From assembly GCA_030835125.1 (NCBI GenBank), contig JAUQWM010000013.1, positions 1-64,000 of the forward strand: a stretch of DNA of 64,000 nucleotides, given 5' to 3'. The stretch's first letter is position 1. Each line of letters starts with the position of its first letter. Source of the stretch: Gemmatimonadaceae bacterium (GTDB lineage Bacteria; Gemmatimonadota; Gemmatimonadetes; Gemmatimonadales; Gemmatimonadaceae). Below the pieces are notes generated by a model. It ran no database searches. It saw only the letters and a program-made list of their open reading frames with translations, and was not told the origin of the DNA. A program made the translations under genes and the position numbers. Below are positions 44,003 to 64,000 of this stretch, one piece after another.

Positions 44003-46323
44003 GCGCCGTCCCCCGACCCGGAGACCCTGTCATCACGCCCGCGCTCGTCGCCGAGCATGGGCTTACGTACGAGGAGTACGAGAAGCTGGTCGCGATGCTC
44101 GGCCGGACGCCCACGTTCACGGAACTGGGCGTGGTCAGCGCGCTGTGGAGCGAGCACTGCTCGTACAAGCACTCCCGTCCGCTGTTGAAGACGCTGCCGA
44201 CGAAGGGGAAGCATGTGCTGCAGGGCCCTGGGGAGAATGCCGGGGTCATCGCGGTCGGAGACGGGCTGGCGGTCGCGTTCAAGATCGAGTCGCACAACCA
44301 TCCCTCGGCCGTGGAGCCGTATCAGGGCGCCGCGACCGGCGTTGGCGGGATCCTGCGTGACGTGTTCACCATGGGCGCCCGGCCCATTGCCCTGCTGAAC
44401 TCCCTGCGATTTGGTGGGCTCGAGCATCCACGGACGCGGTGGCTGGTCGCCGGGGTCGTGAAGGGCATCGGGGACTACGGCAACTGCATGGGTGTGCCGA
44501 CGGTGGCGGGCGAAGTGGTGTTCGACGATGCGTATGCGGGGAACCCGCTCGTCAACGCGATGTGTGTCGGCGTCATGCGCGAGGAGGAGCTCATGCGCGC
44601 GGTGGCCAGCGGCATCGGCAACCCGATCATCGCCGTCGGCGCGCGCACGGGACGTGATGGCATCCACGGGGCCTCCTTCGCGTCGGAGGACCTTTCCCAC
44701 GAGAGCGACGCCAAGCGCCCGCGCGTCCAGGTCGGCGACCCGTTCACGGAGAAGCTGCTCCTCGAGGCATCCCTGGAACTGATCCGGAGCGGACACATCG
44801 TCGCCATCCAGGACATGGGCGCCGCCGGCCTGACGAGTTCCTCGGCCGAGATGGCCGCCCGCGGCGACGTGGGCGTGGAGATCGACGTGACGAAGATGCC
44901 ACTGCGCGAAGAGGGGATGACGCCGTACGAGATCCTGCTCAGCGAGTCGCAGGAGCGGATGCTGGTGGTGGCGAAGAAGGGTCGCGAGGAGCAGGTCCGC
45001 GCCATCCTGGCCCGGTGGGACCTTACCGCCGAGGTGATCGGCGAGGTGATTGCGGAGCCGGTGTACCGGGTGAAGGAGGGAGACCGCGTGGTCGCGGAGT
45101 TCCCGGGCTCGCGCCTCGTCACCGACTGCCCGGTCTATTCCCCGGAAGCACGGGAGAGCGACGCCATTCGCGCCGAACGGGAACGCGACGTCGAGGCGAT
45201 CCTGCCGCGTGCCGAGGAAGCGGACGCGATGTGGACCCTGGAGCAGTTGCTGTCGTCGCCCACGATCGCGAGCAAGACCTGGGTCGTCAGGCAGTACGAC
45301 AGTACGGTCCGGGCCAGCACGATCGTCGGCCCCGGCCCGGCGGATGCCGCGGTGGTCATGCTCCGCGGGACCCGGCGCGCGCTGGCCCTCAAGACCGACT
45401 GCAACGGGCGCTACGTGCACCTCGACCCGCGCACGGGCGGCCGGATCGCGGTGGCCGAGGCGGCGCGCAACGTCGCCTGCGCGGGCGGCCGGCCGATGGC
45501 GATCACGAACTGCCTCAATTTCGGGAACCCCCGGCGGCCGGAGGTGTTCTTCCAGTTCCGCGAGGCCGTGGCGGGCATGGGAGAGGCGTGCGAAGCGTTA
45601 GGCACGCCGGTGACCGGCGGCAACGTCTCCTTCTACAACGAGAGCCCGGCCGGCGCGGTCTACCCGACACCCACCATCGGCATGGTGGGCCTCCTCGAGG
45701 ATGTGTCGCAGGCCACGACCGCCGTGTTCCGGACCCCGGGCGACGCGATCCTCCTGCTGGGGGAGAACACCGACGAGCTCGGTGCAAGCGAGTACCTGCG
45801 CTGGGTGCACGGCGTGGTGGGTGGCAGGCCTCCCGCCTGCGACGTCGCCGCGGAACGGCGACTCGTGGATACCCTTCTCGAGGCCATCGCGGACGCCACG
45901 ATCGCGTCGGCACACGACTGCAGCGATGGCGGGCTGGCGGTGGCCATTGCCGAATGCTGTGTCATGGATGAGGACGCGCCGTTCGGGGCGACCGTGGACC
46001 TGTCGCCGTGGGCCGGGCTGACGCTCCGGGCCCTGTTGTTTGGCGAGGCCCAGGGCCGGATTGTGGTATCTTCCCCTGACCCGGCGGCGGTGCTCGGAAT
46101 CGCGGCAAGGCATGGCGTCCCGGCGACACGGATCGGAACGGTCGGCGAGCCGAACGGAAGCCTCGTCATGCAGGTCGGCAGCAACCGGTTCCAGGCCTCG
46201 GTGTCACGGCTCGCGGCGGCGTACCACGGCGCCATCCCTGCCATGATGTCGCGAGTGGCAACGGCAACGGATGAGGAAGAGGCATCAGGCATCAGGCATC
46301 AGGCATCTGGGGTGGGTGTTTGA
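43999..46323 (+). CDS. purL: phosphoribosylformylglycinamidine synthase subunit PurL with heptad-encoded C-terminal tail
   Basis: [42 protein letters not shown]; terminal [16 protein letters not shown] encoded by repeats. Confidence 0.96.
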
Positions 46324-46370
46324 TCGTCAATGCCCGATGCCTGATGCCCGATGCCCGATGCCTGATGCCT
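46281..46370. repeat. inverted heptad element: GGCATCA x3 + GGCATCT ... ATGCCCG/ATGCCTG/ATGCCCG/ATGCCCG/ATGCCTG
   Basis: Direct reading; arms reverse-complementary, purL stop codon in the loop. Confidence 0.9.
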
Positions 46371-60267: not shown

Positions 60268-61242
60268 TCAGCTGCCCGGCGGCACCCACGCGACCCCCCC
60301 TATTCCCAGCTCCTTCCTTCGCAGCAACCGCGGCGCACGGTCCGGCCCGAGTACCGCGGATGCCGTCGCGAGCGCGTCCGCGAGCGCACCGTCCGTGGCG
60401 ATCACCGTGACCGAATGCCGACCCGTGACCCCCCTCCCCGTGCGCGGATCCACCACGTGCGAGTAGCGCACCCCATCGATCTCCACGAATTGCTCCGAGC
60501 TGCCCGACGTGGCCACGGCCACGTCAACAAGCGCCTGTGACAACGCCCGCGTCGCCGAATCCGCGCCCGTGATTTCCACGCTCCATCCCGCGCGGCCCGG
60601 CGGGGCTGCGCCCACCACCAGGTCTCCCCCGGCCTCGATCATCGCCGACGTCAGGCCCCGCGATCGCAGGACGGCCAGCGCCTGCGACAGGATGTAACCT
60701 TTCGCGATCCCGCCCAGGTCGAGTTGCATGCTGTCCGCCCACAACCGGACCGCCGAGCGCGTCGTGTCCACCTCGAGCAGACGCCAACCCGTCCGCGATC
60801 GCGCCCTCGACAGCGCGGCCGCGTCAGGCAGGCGACCGATCCGCCGCGAACCGCGCCATAACGTCACCAGCGGGCCGACGGTAACGTCGAATGCGCCGCC
60901 GCTCAGCCTCGAGACTTCCTGCCCCTTCGCCAGTACCTCCAGCAACTCGCGGCTCACCGGCTGCCACTCCCGCGGTCGTGCCGAAAGGCTCCGCACCTCG
61001 CTCCGCGGCCGGTAATCGCTCATCTTGTCCTCGAGCGCCGCGATGCGCGAATACGCTTCCCTGGCGGCTTCGCGAGCCTCGCCTTCACTCGAACTGTACA
61101 GGACGATCCTGACCCGAACCCCCATATGCACCGCGGTGAACTCGTGACGGTCCTGTGCGCCGGCACCGGCTGTGGCCCCGAGCACCAGCGTCAGGACAGC
61201 GAGCCCCGCACGCAGGACGCGGTGTCGTGATCCGGGCCTCAT
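60268..61242 (-). CDS. FAD:protein FMN transferase (ApbE family)
   Basis: HMGVRVRIVLYSSSEGEAREAAREAYSRIAALEDKMSDYRPRSEV, LDLGGIAKGYILSQAL, YSHVVDPRTGRGVTGRHSVTVIATDGALADALATA. Confidence 0.93.
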   Translation of the reverse strand: MRPGSRHRVLRAGLAVLTLVLGATAGAGAQDRHEFTAVHMGVRVRIVLYSSSEGEAREAAREAYSRIAALEDKMSDYRPRSEVRSLSARPREWQPVSRELLEVLAKGQEVSRLSGGAFDVTVGPLVTLWRGSRRIGRLPDAAALSRARSRTGWRLLEVDTTRSAVRLWADSMQLDLGGIAKGYILSQALAVLRSRGLTSAMIEAGGDLVVGAAPPGRAGWSVEITGADSATRALSQALVDVAVATSGSSEQFVEIDGVRYSHVVDPRTGRGVTGRHSVTVIATDGALADALATASAVLGPDRAPRLLRRKELGIGGVAWVPPGS

Positions 61243-61952
61243 TCCTGTTCCTGCTGGCGGCCTTCGCCCGTCCAGCCCGCGGCCAGGAGGCGTACACCGA
61301 TTCCGTTCCCGGCACCCTGGTTCGCTTCGAGATGGTGAAGGTCCAGGGAGTGAGCCTCTGGGTCGGCCGGACCGAGGTCACCTGGGACCTTTACGACGCG
61401 TTCGCGCTCTCGCGACCAGACTCCAGCGAGCGCCGCACCGCCGCCGATGCGGTCGCGCGGCCCACCCGTCCCTACGGGGCTCCCGACTACGGTTGGGGAC
61501 ATGCCGGCTTCCCCGTCATCAGCGTGGCGCACACGGCCGCGGAGGCCTTCTGCGAGTGGTTGTCAGCACGCACCGGAAAGAAGTATCGTCTCCCAACGGA
61601 GGCGGAATGGGAACAGGTGGCACAGGCGGCGGCCACGGGCAAGTCCCCCGCGGACCTCGCGTGGCACGCCGCGAATGCCGGTGGCACGACCCATCCCGTC
61701 GGTCGAAAGGAAGCCGACGCGGTCGGCCTCTACGACCTCTTCGGCAATGCCGCCGAGTGGGTGACGGTGGCCTCGGGCCGGCCCGTCGTGAGAGGGGGTT
61801 CGTTTCGTGATGCAGCAGCGAGCATCGGCCCGTCCGCCCGCGCCGTGAGGCAGGATGAGTGGAATGAACGCGATCCGCAGATCCCCCAGAGCAGGTGGTG
61901 GATGTCGGACGCACCGTTTGTCGGTTTCCGTATCGTGCGGGAACCAGGGTAG
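61227..61952 (+). CDS. formylglycine-generating enzyme (SUMF1/FGE) domain protein
   Basis: VGRTEVTWDLYDAF, YGWGHAGFPVISVAHTAAEAFCEWLSARTGKKYRLPTEAEWEQVAQ, NAAEWVTVASGRPVVRGGSFRDAA. Confidence 0.9.
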   Translation: MIRASFLFLLAAFARPARGQEAYTDSVPGTLVRFEMVKVQGVSLWVGRTEVTWDLYDAFALSRPDSSERRTAADAVARPTRPYGAPDYGWGHAGFPVISVAHTAAEAFCEWLSARTGKKYRLPTEAEWEQVAQAAATGKSPADLAWHAANAGGTTHPVGRKEADAVGLYDLFGNAAEWVTVASGRPVVRGGSFRDAAASIGPSARAVRQDEWNERDPQIPQSRWWMSDAPFVGFRIVREPG

Positions 61953-61960
61953 TCCTCGGG

Positions 61961-62038
61961 ATTCGTGACTCGTGAATCGTGACTCGGCATCCCGGTACTG
62001 CAGTACTCTTCTGACCTCCGACCTCTGACCTCGGACCT
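61961..62038. repeat. two heptad blocks (ATTCGTG/ACTCGTG/AATCGTG/ACTCGGC and CTGACCT/CCGACCT/CTGACCT/CGGACCT) around palindrome GTACTGCAGTAC (61995-62006)
   Basis: Direct reading in exact 7-bp phase. Confidence 0.85.
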
Positions 62039-62045
62039 CAAGCAA

Positions 62046-63350
62046 ATGCCTCATACTCCGTTCTCGCGCCGGACGTTCGTGAAGACGACCGGACTCGCCG
62101 CGGCCGGCATCGCGCTGCCGCGTGGATTGTCGGCCATGTCGGGCACCGGATCCTCCGCCGACGCGTTGCGGGTGGGCGTCATCGGCTGCGGTGGCCGCGG
62201 CAGCGGGGCGGCGCGAGACTGCATGCGGGCCGGCGGTGACGACGTGGTCCTGGTGGCAATGGGTGACCTCTTCCCCGACCGGCTCGAGCGCGCACGCGCC
62301 AACCTGGCCAAGGTGGCGAGCGAGGACGCCATGGTCGCCAAGCAGTTCAAGGTGACACCCGAGATGTGCTTCAGCGGGTTCGACGCCTTCCAGAAGGTGC
62401 TCGCGACGGATATCGACCTGGTGATCCTGGCCACACCGCCCGGATTCCGCCCGGTGCACCTGGCGGCCGCGGTCGCTGCCGGGAAGCACATCTTCATGGA
62501 GAAGCCGGTCGCGGTGGACGCGGCTGGCGTGCGGTCGGTGATCGCGTCCGCGGCCGCTGCAAAGGCGAAGAACCTGGCGATCGTCGCCGGCACGCAGAGA
62601 CGCCATGACCCCGCGTACATGGAGGTCATGAAGCGAGTACATGACGGCGCCATTGGACACATCACCAGCGGCCAGGTCTACTGGAACCAGGGCGGCCTCT
62701 GGAACGCCGCGCGCGAGGCCGGCTGGACCGACGTCGAGTGGCAGGTCCGCAACTGGCTGTACTTCGCCTGGGCTTCTGGCGACCACATCGTCGAGCAGCA
62801 CATCCACAACATCGACGTTGCCAACTGGGCGCTCCAGGCGCATCCGATACGCGCCGTGGGCGTCGGCGGACGCCAGTGGCGCACGGGGGCCGAGTACGGG
62901 CACATCTTCGACCACTTCGCGGTCGATTTCGAGTACCCGAACGGGGTTCACATCATGAGCATGTGCCGGCAGATCGATGGCACGGCGAATCACGTCGGGG
63001 AGCGCTTCATCGGAACCAGCGGCTTCACCGACCCCAGTTCGAGCATCACCGGCCAGGCCACCTACACCTGGTCGGGGCCGCGCAAGAATCCGTATGTCGA
63101 GGAGCACGTGGACCTGATCGCCAGCATCAAGGCCGGCAAGCCACTGAACGAGGGTCAACAGGTCGCGGAGAGTACCCTCAGCGCGATCATGGGACGTGAG
63201 GCGGCGTATACCGGGCAGGCGATCGCATGGGACGACTTGCTCAACGCTCCCATGGACCTCACTCCGCCATTCTCCGGATTCGGGCCACTCGCCGTACCGC
63301 CGGTGCCGATGCCGGGAAGGACGAAACTCGCCAGGGGATTTGCTGAATGA
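62046..63350 (+). CDS. Gfo/Idh/MocA family oxidoreductase with Tat signal
   Basis: SRRTFVKTTGLAAAGIALP; RVGVIGCGGRGSGAARDCMRAG..., GKHIFMEKPVAVDAAGVRSV. Confidence 0.93.
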   Translation: MPHTPFSRRTFVKTTGLAAAGIALPRGLSAMSGTGSSADALRVGVIGCGGRGSGAARDCMRAGGDDVVLVAMGDLFPDRLERARANLAKVASEDAMVAKQFKVTPEMCFSGFDAFQKVLATDIDLVILATPPGFRPVHLAAAVAAGKHIFMEKPVAVDAAGVRSVIASAAAAKAKNLAIVAGTQRRHDPAYMEVMKRVHDGAIGHITSGQVYWNQGGLWNAAREAGWTDVEWQVRNWLYFAWASGDHIVEQHIHNIDVANWALQAHPIRAVGVGGRQWRTGAEYGHIFDHFAVDFEYPNGVHIMSMCRQIDGTANHVGERFIGTSGFTDPSSSITGQATYTWSGPRKNPYVEEHVDLIASIKAGKPLNEGQQVAESTLSAIMGREAAYTGQAIAWDDLLNAPMDLTPPFSGFGPLAVPPVPMPGRTKLARGFAE

Positions 63351-64000
63351 GTTCGGAGGCCCGAGGTCCGGGGTCCGAACGCATGGAAACCGGGAACGGT
63401 GGCCCGCGGGCCGAAGCGATCGACACGAGTCGGCGGGAACTGTTCGCGGCCGCCGGAGTGGCCGCGTTGTCCGCCGCGGTGCCGGCGACGGCTTCGTCGC
63501 AGGCGACACAGGCACGGCGCCCTTTCCGGCTGCCCTATGCGCCGCATTTCGGGATGTTCCGGCAGCACGCCACCGGCGGACTTGTGGCCGAACTCGAGTT
63601 CATGGCGGCCGAGGGCTTCACGGCGCTCGAGGACAATGGCCTCAAGGATCGCTCGATCGCCGACCAGGAGCTTGTCGGCCGCACGCTGGCGCGGCTCAAC
63701 ATGCGGATGGGCGTGTTCGTCGCCCACACCATCGCCTGGAACGAGGCCAACCTCACCAACGGCGACGCGACGGCGCGGGACGCGTTCCTCCAGCAGGTCC
63801 GCGAGTCGATCGATGTTGCACGGCGGGTCAACGCGACGTGGATGACCGTCGTTCCCGGCCACCTCGACCGGCGGCTCGACCTGGACTTCCAGACCGCCAA
63901 CGTGGTCGAGGCGCTGAAGCGCGCCGCGGCGCTCCTCGAGCCACACGGACTCGTGATCGTCATCGAACCGCTGAACACCCTCCGTGACCACCCGGGGCAG
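63347..64000 (+). CDS. Tat-secreted sugar phosphate isomerase/epimerase (hydroxypyruvate isomerase-like), truncated by window end
   Basis: DTSRRELFAAAGVAALSAAVPATASS; RLPYAPHFGMFRQHATGGLVAELEFMAAEGFTALEDNGL...VIVIEPLNT. Confidence 0.85.
   Translation, partial: MSSEARGPGSERMETGNGGPRAEAIDTSRRELFAAAGVAALSAAVPATASSQATQARRPFRLPYAPHFGMFRQHATGGLVAELEFMAAEGFTALEDNGLKDRSIADQELVGRTLARLNMRMGVFVAHTIAWNEANLTNGDATARDAFLQQVRESIDVARRVNATWMTVVPGHLDRRLDLDFQTANVVEALKRAAALLEPHGLVIVIEPLNTLRDHPGQ
63351..63380. repeat. heptad array GTTCGGA/GGCCCGA/GGTCCGG/GGTCCGA
   Basis: Direct reading; reverse complement resembles the GACCTCN block at 62011-62038. Confidence 0.75.

Follow-up and report, generated by a model that had tools for sequence, protein, structure and literature searches.

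Facing heptanucleotide repeat arrays at gene edges in a Gemmatimonadaceae genome

Arrays in one intergenic gap

A stretch of 64,000 nucleotides from a Gemmatimonadaceae bacterium (assembly GCA_030835125.1, contig JAUQWM010000013.1, positions 1 to 64,000; the whole stretch is hereafter called the window) was analysed for the tandem heptanucleotide (heptad) arrays that occupy the gap between an FGE-sulfatase-like gene and an oxidoreductase gene. Genes were taken from open reading frames (ORFs) and Pfam domains, and arrays were delimited by Tandem Repeats Finder (TRF) and a lag-7 scan, as follows.

61155-61952, + strand: FGE-sulfatase-like gene (formylglycine-generating enzyme, FGE, domain; ORF; Pfam PF03781, E=2.8e-18)
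61956-61986, + strand: heptad array 1, TCGTGAC/GACTCGT family, about 4.4 units (TRF, lag-7 scan)
61987-62009, no strand: 23-bp spacer between the facing arrays, containing a palindrome
61995-62006, no strand: perfect 12-bp palindrome GTACTGCAGTAC, judged incidental
62010-62039, - strand: heptad array 2, GACCTCY on the + strand and GAGGTCN on the - strand, about 4.3 units (TRF, lag-7 scan)
62046-63350, + strand: GFO/IDH/MocA-type oxidoreductase (ORF; Pfam PF01408, PF22725)

The repeats had been reported in a first-pass annotation as ATTCGTG/ACTCGTG/AATCGTG/ACTCGGC at 61961-61988, GTACTGCAGTAC at 61995-62006, and CTGACCT/CCGACCT/CTGACCT/CGGACCT at 62011-62038, and these letters and coordinates were all exact. 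The left gene edge of the gap is the native stop codon of the FGE-like gene (61950-61952), and the C-terminus of the encoded protein is kept in the sequences of relatives; array 1 begins 3 bp past this codon. The right gene edge is the start codon of the oxidoreductase gene, and array 2 ends 6 bp ahead of it. The left array caps the FGE-like stop codon and the right array caps the oxidoreductase start. That the two arrays stand back to back reflects their attachment to different gene edges. The array at one edge is independent of that at the other, which is why their units differ; a junction element between them is not the cause.

The palindrome had been proposed as a junction or entry site, with enrichment of short palindromes at array borders as the check. 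A search of the 4.48-Mb genome (G000) found GTACTGCAGTAC as a single copy. Perfect palindromes of at least 12 bp numbered 44 in the window and were present in 1.6% of 30-bp segments at array borders versus 1.1% of control intergenic segments, and those of at least 8 bp were scarcer at array borders (7.8% versus 12.8%). Neighbouring arrays were parted by 23 spacers at least 10 bp long, of which only 2 contained a palindrome of that length, the two sequences being unrelated, and the spacers of other facing pairs had no common sequence. The single genomic copy and the lack of border enrichment, the latter being the outcome that the annotation had itself named as refuting, leave the palindrome unsupported as a junction, and with spacers mostly free of palindromes the proposal of an entry site was abandoned; the palindrome is a bystander, not beyond chance.

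The spacers also bear on the idea that the gap holds a small mobile element with heptad arrays as its ends, spread by a transposase. In its favour, facing arrays in inverted orientation look like terminal inverted repeats, the same unit recurs at many sites, and in another Gemmatimonadota genome (G056) a TGTCATCCTGAGC-type repeat lies between facing arrays. Against it, the inter-array spacers are unrelated, the only DNA common to array flanks is paralogous coding sequence, and single arrays are common. The lack of shared flanks or spacers led to the rejection of such an element, which we regard as very improbable indeed. Repetitive extragenic palindromic (REP) elements, bacterial interspersed mosaic elements (BIME) and miniature inverted-repeat transposable elements (MITEs) have a conserved palindromic core or conserved ends, whereas here the palindrome is unique and spacers and flanks are unrelated. 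A REP-like look was seen in an inverted repeat, TGTCATCCTGAGC...CTCAGAATGACA, that lies between facing GACTAGA arrays at L311:9892-10040 (G056) and also at L004.

Array population and placement

Array statistics were obtained from samples of 682 kb and 937 kb of the genome, which carries heptad arrays in the hundreds. The lag-7 scan of the 682-kb sample gave 90 period-7 arrays versus 2 in shuffled sequence, far above chance, and other periods gave 0 to 4 arrays, except multiples of 3 or 7. The 937-kb sample contained 137 period-7 arrays, 127 of them (93%) outside genes. Divergent gaps were under-used, with 10 of the 106 classified intergenic arrays versus 26% of intergenic length, and convergent gaps were over-used, with 18 arrays versus 9% of the length. 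Two different units close together in one gap were found 14 times versus 7.4 +/- 2.4 under random placement, a modest excess that was reached in 4 of 300 simulations.

The commonest units were AACTCTC, AGGCATC, GACTCGT, GGGAATC, CAGAGTG and GACCCTC, and 32 of 1172 possible consensus unit classes were used. Two independent elements shared a unit with a probability of 0.064, versus 0.0018 for random intergenic heptads (36-fold). Nearly all units contain GA, and the pattern GAKK fits 124 of the 137 arrays; as a universal signature GAKK fails in some relatives, whose units are GA-rich in other ways. Units were shared by 30% of arrays 1-3 kb apart, 7% of those 3-8 kb apart and 12% of those farther apart. 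A gene-cassette model, by which the two ends of one gene share a unit, held in 4 of 8 cases, a sample too small to decide. Fifteen of the 59 contigs of the genome start within 80 bp of a heptad array, mostly AACTCTC (L112-L150, L199-L218), where 0.01 per contig was expected; the assembly breaks at long arrays, so that their true lengths are not captured.

The arrays follow a placement rule: the purine-rich, GA-containing strand (U) reads 5' to 3' from the gene edge into the gap, giving the arrangement gene-(U)n ... (rcU)n-gene, in which rcU is the reverse complement of U. Of 123 arrays, 79 start no more than 10 bp away from the gene edge that they face, where uniform placement would give 20.6 (maximum 31). 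Anchoring is equally good for units that contain no stop codon (35 of 45), which excludes an artefact of ORF truncation or stop codons, and arrays adjoin start codons too (23 of 55 within 10 bp).

Arrays that neighbour one another nearly always point towards each other, with 80 of 86 arms obeying the polarity, compared with 61 on average and 72 at most under the null. The polarity also holds for unlike facing units, as at the studied gap, where GACTCGT on the left reads as U and GACCTCT on the right as rcU, and single arrays obey it by their position in the gap (p=4e-4). Facing AGGCATC pairs in this genome obey it in 10 of 10 cases and facing GAKK pairs in other Gemmatimonadota genomes in 25 of 25. 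The cross-validated accuracy of the polarity was 0.77 versus 0.50 (null maximum 0.67), and an unfitted purine measure applied to the congener (G001) gave 15/3/2/13 (p=9e-5), with the same direction in G040 and G056. A general purine bias beside genes was rejected, the outward purine fraction being 0.52-0.53 in array-free gaps versus 0.57-0.59 for arrays. Polarity reverses mid-gap between co-directional genes, and therefore neither transcription nor fork direction sets it. At L324:9079-9288 (G040), very long facing GAGACG/TCTCGTC arrays occupy a convergent-gene gap from stop to stop.

Ordinary 7-nt replication slippage at random non-coding positions, with selection alone clearing genes and promoters and no end-directed process, accounts for the period and its multiples (14 and 21, for example), for the variety of units and for the position between genes. 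It is also consistent with an intact MutS in this genome; loops of 7 nt are not an expected target of mismatch repair. Slippage of this kind, which we consider possible but doubtful, leaves unaccounted for both the inward polarity and edge anchoring and the presence of the same unit at many unlinked sites in one species and its absence from relatives. Loss of mismatch repair as a cause was rejected, since MutS is found over its cut-off in this genome and likewise in array-rich and array-poor genomes.

Folding of facing arrays

Facing arrays might instead be selected RNA elements, that is, intercistronic or 3'-end hairpins that would end transcription both ways or protect mRNA 3' ends in a REP-like manner. 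The computed folds of matched facing pairs are very stable (z -7.8 to -9.1), and one such pair lies elsewhere in the window.

46280-46370, no strand: comparison element, an AGGCATC array facing a GATGCCY array, whose arms match (RNA hairpin of -65.7 kcal/mol, z -7.8)

Units match across the gap in 53% of pairs versus 11% at random, and the location of arrays just past stop codons, with convergent gaps enriched and divergent gaps depleted, also favours such a function. In Xanthomonas, transcript starts and stops are commoner at repeats that form G-quadruplexes (G4) than at controls (PMC4692102). About half of the facing pairs are mismatched, however, including the pair at the studied gap, yet keep the polarity, and three mismatched elements folded no better than shuffles (z +0.3 and +1.0 at the studied gap; -0.05 and +1.8 elsewhere). 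Many arrays are single, and arrays also adjoin start codons. Since mismatched pairs keep polarity, hairpin function cannot be its sole cause, and RNA function as the explanation of the arrays is judged improbable. A match to a known RNA family was not found within the window.

Unit replacement between relatives

In the orthologous gap of the congener, GAGTTGG x4 stands in place of the arrays of the studied gap; in more distant relatives that keep this gene order (L032-L034), the gap is short and contains no heptads. Across 31 orthologous gaps of the two congeners, arrays were present in both at 9, in the present genome alone at 5, in the congener alone at 0 and in neither at 17 (p=1e-4), in a small sample picked from array-rich stretches and with a congener assembly that is 72% complete. 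Gap length as the cause of this site sharing was rejected, since p=5e-4 persists within gaps of 100-600 bp. The unit in the congener was different at 8 of the 9 shared gaps that bear arrays. The family of array 1 is found again genome-wide (e.g. L135, L147, L148), and AGGCATC arrays gave 159 matches in this genome and none in 19 relatives (the congener and 18 others). By these sequence comparisons, arrays persist in orthologous gaps from one species to the other, and the unit that they carry is exchanged for one from a species-specific pool.

The first-pass annotation had argued from the two units of the gap that the generator is specific to the period and not to the sequence. The part on the period stands, as the period is strictly 7 and units differ at shared sites of the congener; indifference to sequence does not, as the units are non-arbitrary by the few classes used, the excess of unit sharing, the near-universal GA and the absence from 19 relatives of the AGGCATC unit common in this genome.

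A survey of 298 genomes from the phylum showed a patchy distribution of GAKK-type arrays in two families and almost none in most of the remaining families. Within genus g12 (G092, G217, G192, G244), GAKK arrays are common in G092 and G217, G192 is poor in them, and G244 gave 1 match versus 206 to a reversed control; such strong differences between its species suggest genus-level turnover of unit dialects. Period-7 arrays with further units were also seen in contigs of Armatimonadetes, Acidobacteria, Planctomycetes and Bacteroidales (L039, L057, L065, L068, L073, L105), in which arrays and gene edges are too few for a polarity test.

The oxidoreductase gene of the studied locus has a weak Tat-like signal match (PF10518, under its cut-off), and the GAGGTC family of array 2 is found at both of its ends, the far end being occupied by the following array.

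63356-63378, + strand: weak GAGGTCC array, about 3 units, overlapped by the start of the next gene

Heptad arrays within coding sequence were thus seen here, at the N-terminus of the next gene, and at L122:2506-2571 (mid-gene); the congener carries another unit at the corresponding place.

Previously described heptameric repeats

The closest known system is that of Rehm et al. 2015 (PMC4692102), who described G-rich heptameric repeats (GGGAATC and GGGGA(C/T)T) in Xanthomonas and Nostoc, on the sense strand after stop codons, on the antisense strand before start codons, and in facing, convergent pairs; about 90% were intergenic, with under-representation between divergent ORFs. The present arrays share with them the 7-bp period, the tandem order and the heterogeneous units, the intergenic share (127/137 here) and scarcity in divergent gaps (10/106 here), and the strand rule at stop and start edges, and GGGAATC is among the units of this genome. 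The repeats of Rehm et al. are, however, one G4-forming family explained via quadruplexes, whereas at least 25 unit classes are in use here, most of which lack the G-tracts needed; neither of the studied arrays has a tract of at least three G (as in GGGNATC) in each unit, and most families of this genome lack such tracts. Also unlike those repeats, different families face each other in one gap here, and from one congener to the other the unit changes at conserved sites. From these comparisons, many largely non-G4 units, mixed arms and unit replacement appear to be the new features.

MacGregor 2015 (PMC4679880) described direct repeats of the heptamer TAACTGA in Beggiatoaceae, Cyanobacteria and Bacteroidetes, which resemble the present arrays in being intergenic, patchy in taxonomy and, in Microcystis, mixed with other heptads. 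In the best-studied genome their single invariant unit lies directly ahead of start codons, and repetition of related heptamers is rare or absent; inward polarity at both gene edges is not reported in the sections of that paper considered here. TAACTGA is not among the 32 unit classes of the present genome. According to the summaries in PMC4679880 and PMC4692102, Mrazek et al. 2007 found that heptanucleotides are the most abundant of the long prokaryotic simple sequence repeats with units of 5-11 nt, and polymerase slippage was proposed, a 7-nt polymerase contact favouring heptads. A period of 7 favoured whatever the sequence is the point of likeness; gene-edge polarity and unit replacement are not reported in those summaries.

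A possible origin of the arrays

The description of the array population and of its placement rule is held with high confidence. For the origin of the arrays, we propose that they would be made and rewritten at the DNA level by copying from both ends in steps of 7 nt. This copying may be 3'-end synthesis of the slippage type that, during repair or replication, starts in conserved sequence at the gene edge and proceeds into unconstrained spacer DNA; selection would keep the process to non-coding DNA and off divergent promoters. A two-ended process on DNA, running from gene edges into the gap, fits the data best, albeit at a confidence somewhat short of even, and two-ended 3'-end synthesis as its mechanism is put forward tentatively at that same level. 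Taken as a whole, rule and mechanism together, this explanation is about evenly balanced between right and wrong.

Several points weigh against it. The generating process itself is an inference. The presence of one unit at many loci in a species needs dispersal or a species-specific preference beyond simple slippage. Ku was present in 17 of 26 array-rich and 14 of 24 array-poor genomes and thus does not track array richness, which leaves Ku-dependent end joining unsupported. The polarity signs of the units were fitted, though cross-validated and checked by unfitted measures, and gene edges came from a simple codon-usage gene-calling script. The assembly is at draft level, with contigs that frequently terminate in arrays, so that the longest arrays are under-sampled.

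A further reading, which we think very improbable, is an activity that would add 7-nt units to 3' DNA ends running out of genes and so cap the genes much as telomere repeats cap chromosome ends. Changes of its template or preference between species might then switch the unit dialect of a whole genome at the same sites, for which AGGCATC could be an example, and this extension is just as speculative.

Biological implications

Heptad repeats are a feature of bacterial genomes that has been unexplained since 2007, and the sole detailed study tied them to G-quadruplexes. The same gene-edge rule is found here in another phylum with mostly non-quadruplex units, and facing arms need not match. The likely cause shifts from a particular sequence or structure to a process that would write a 7-nt period outward from gene edges, and the swapping of units at conserved sites offers a direct route to testing how arrays are rewritten.
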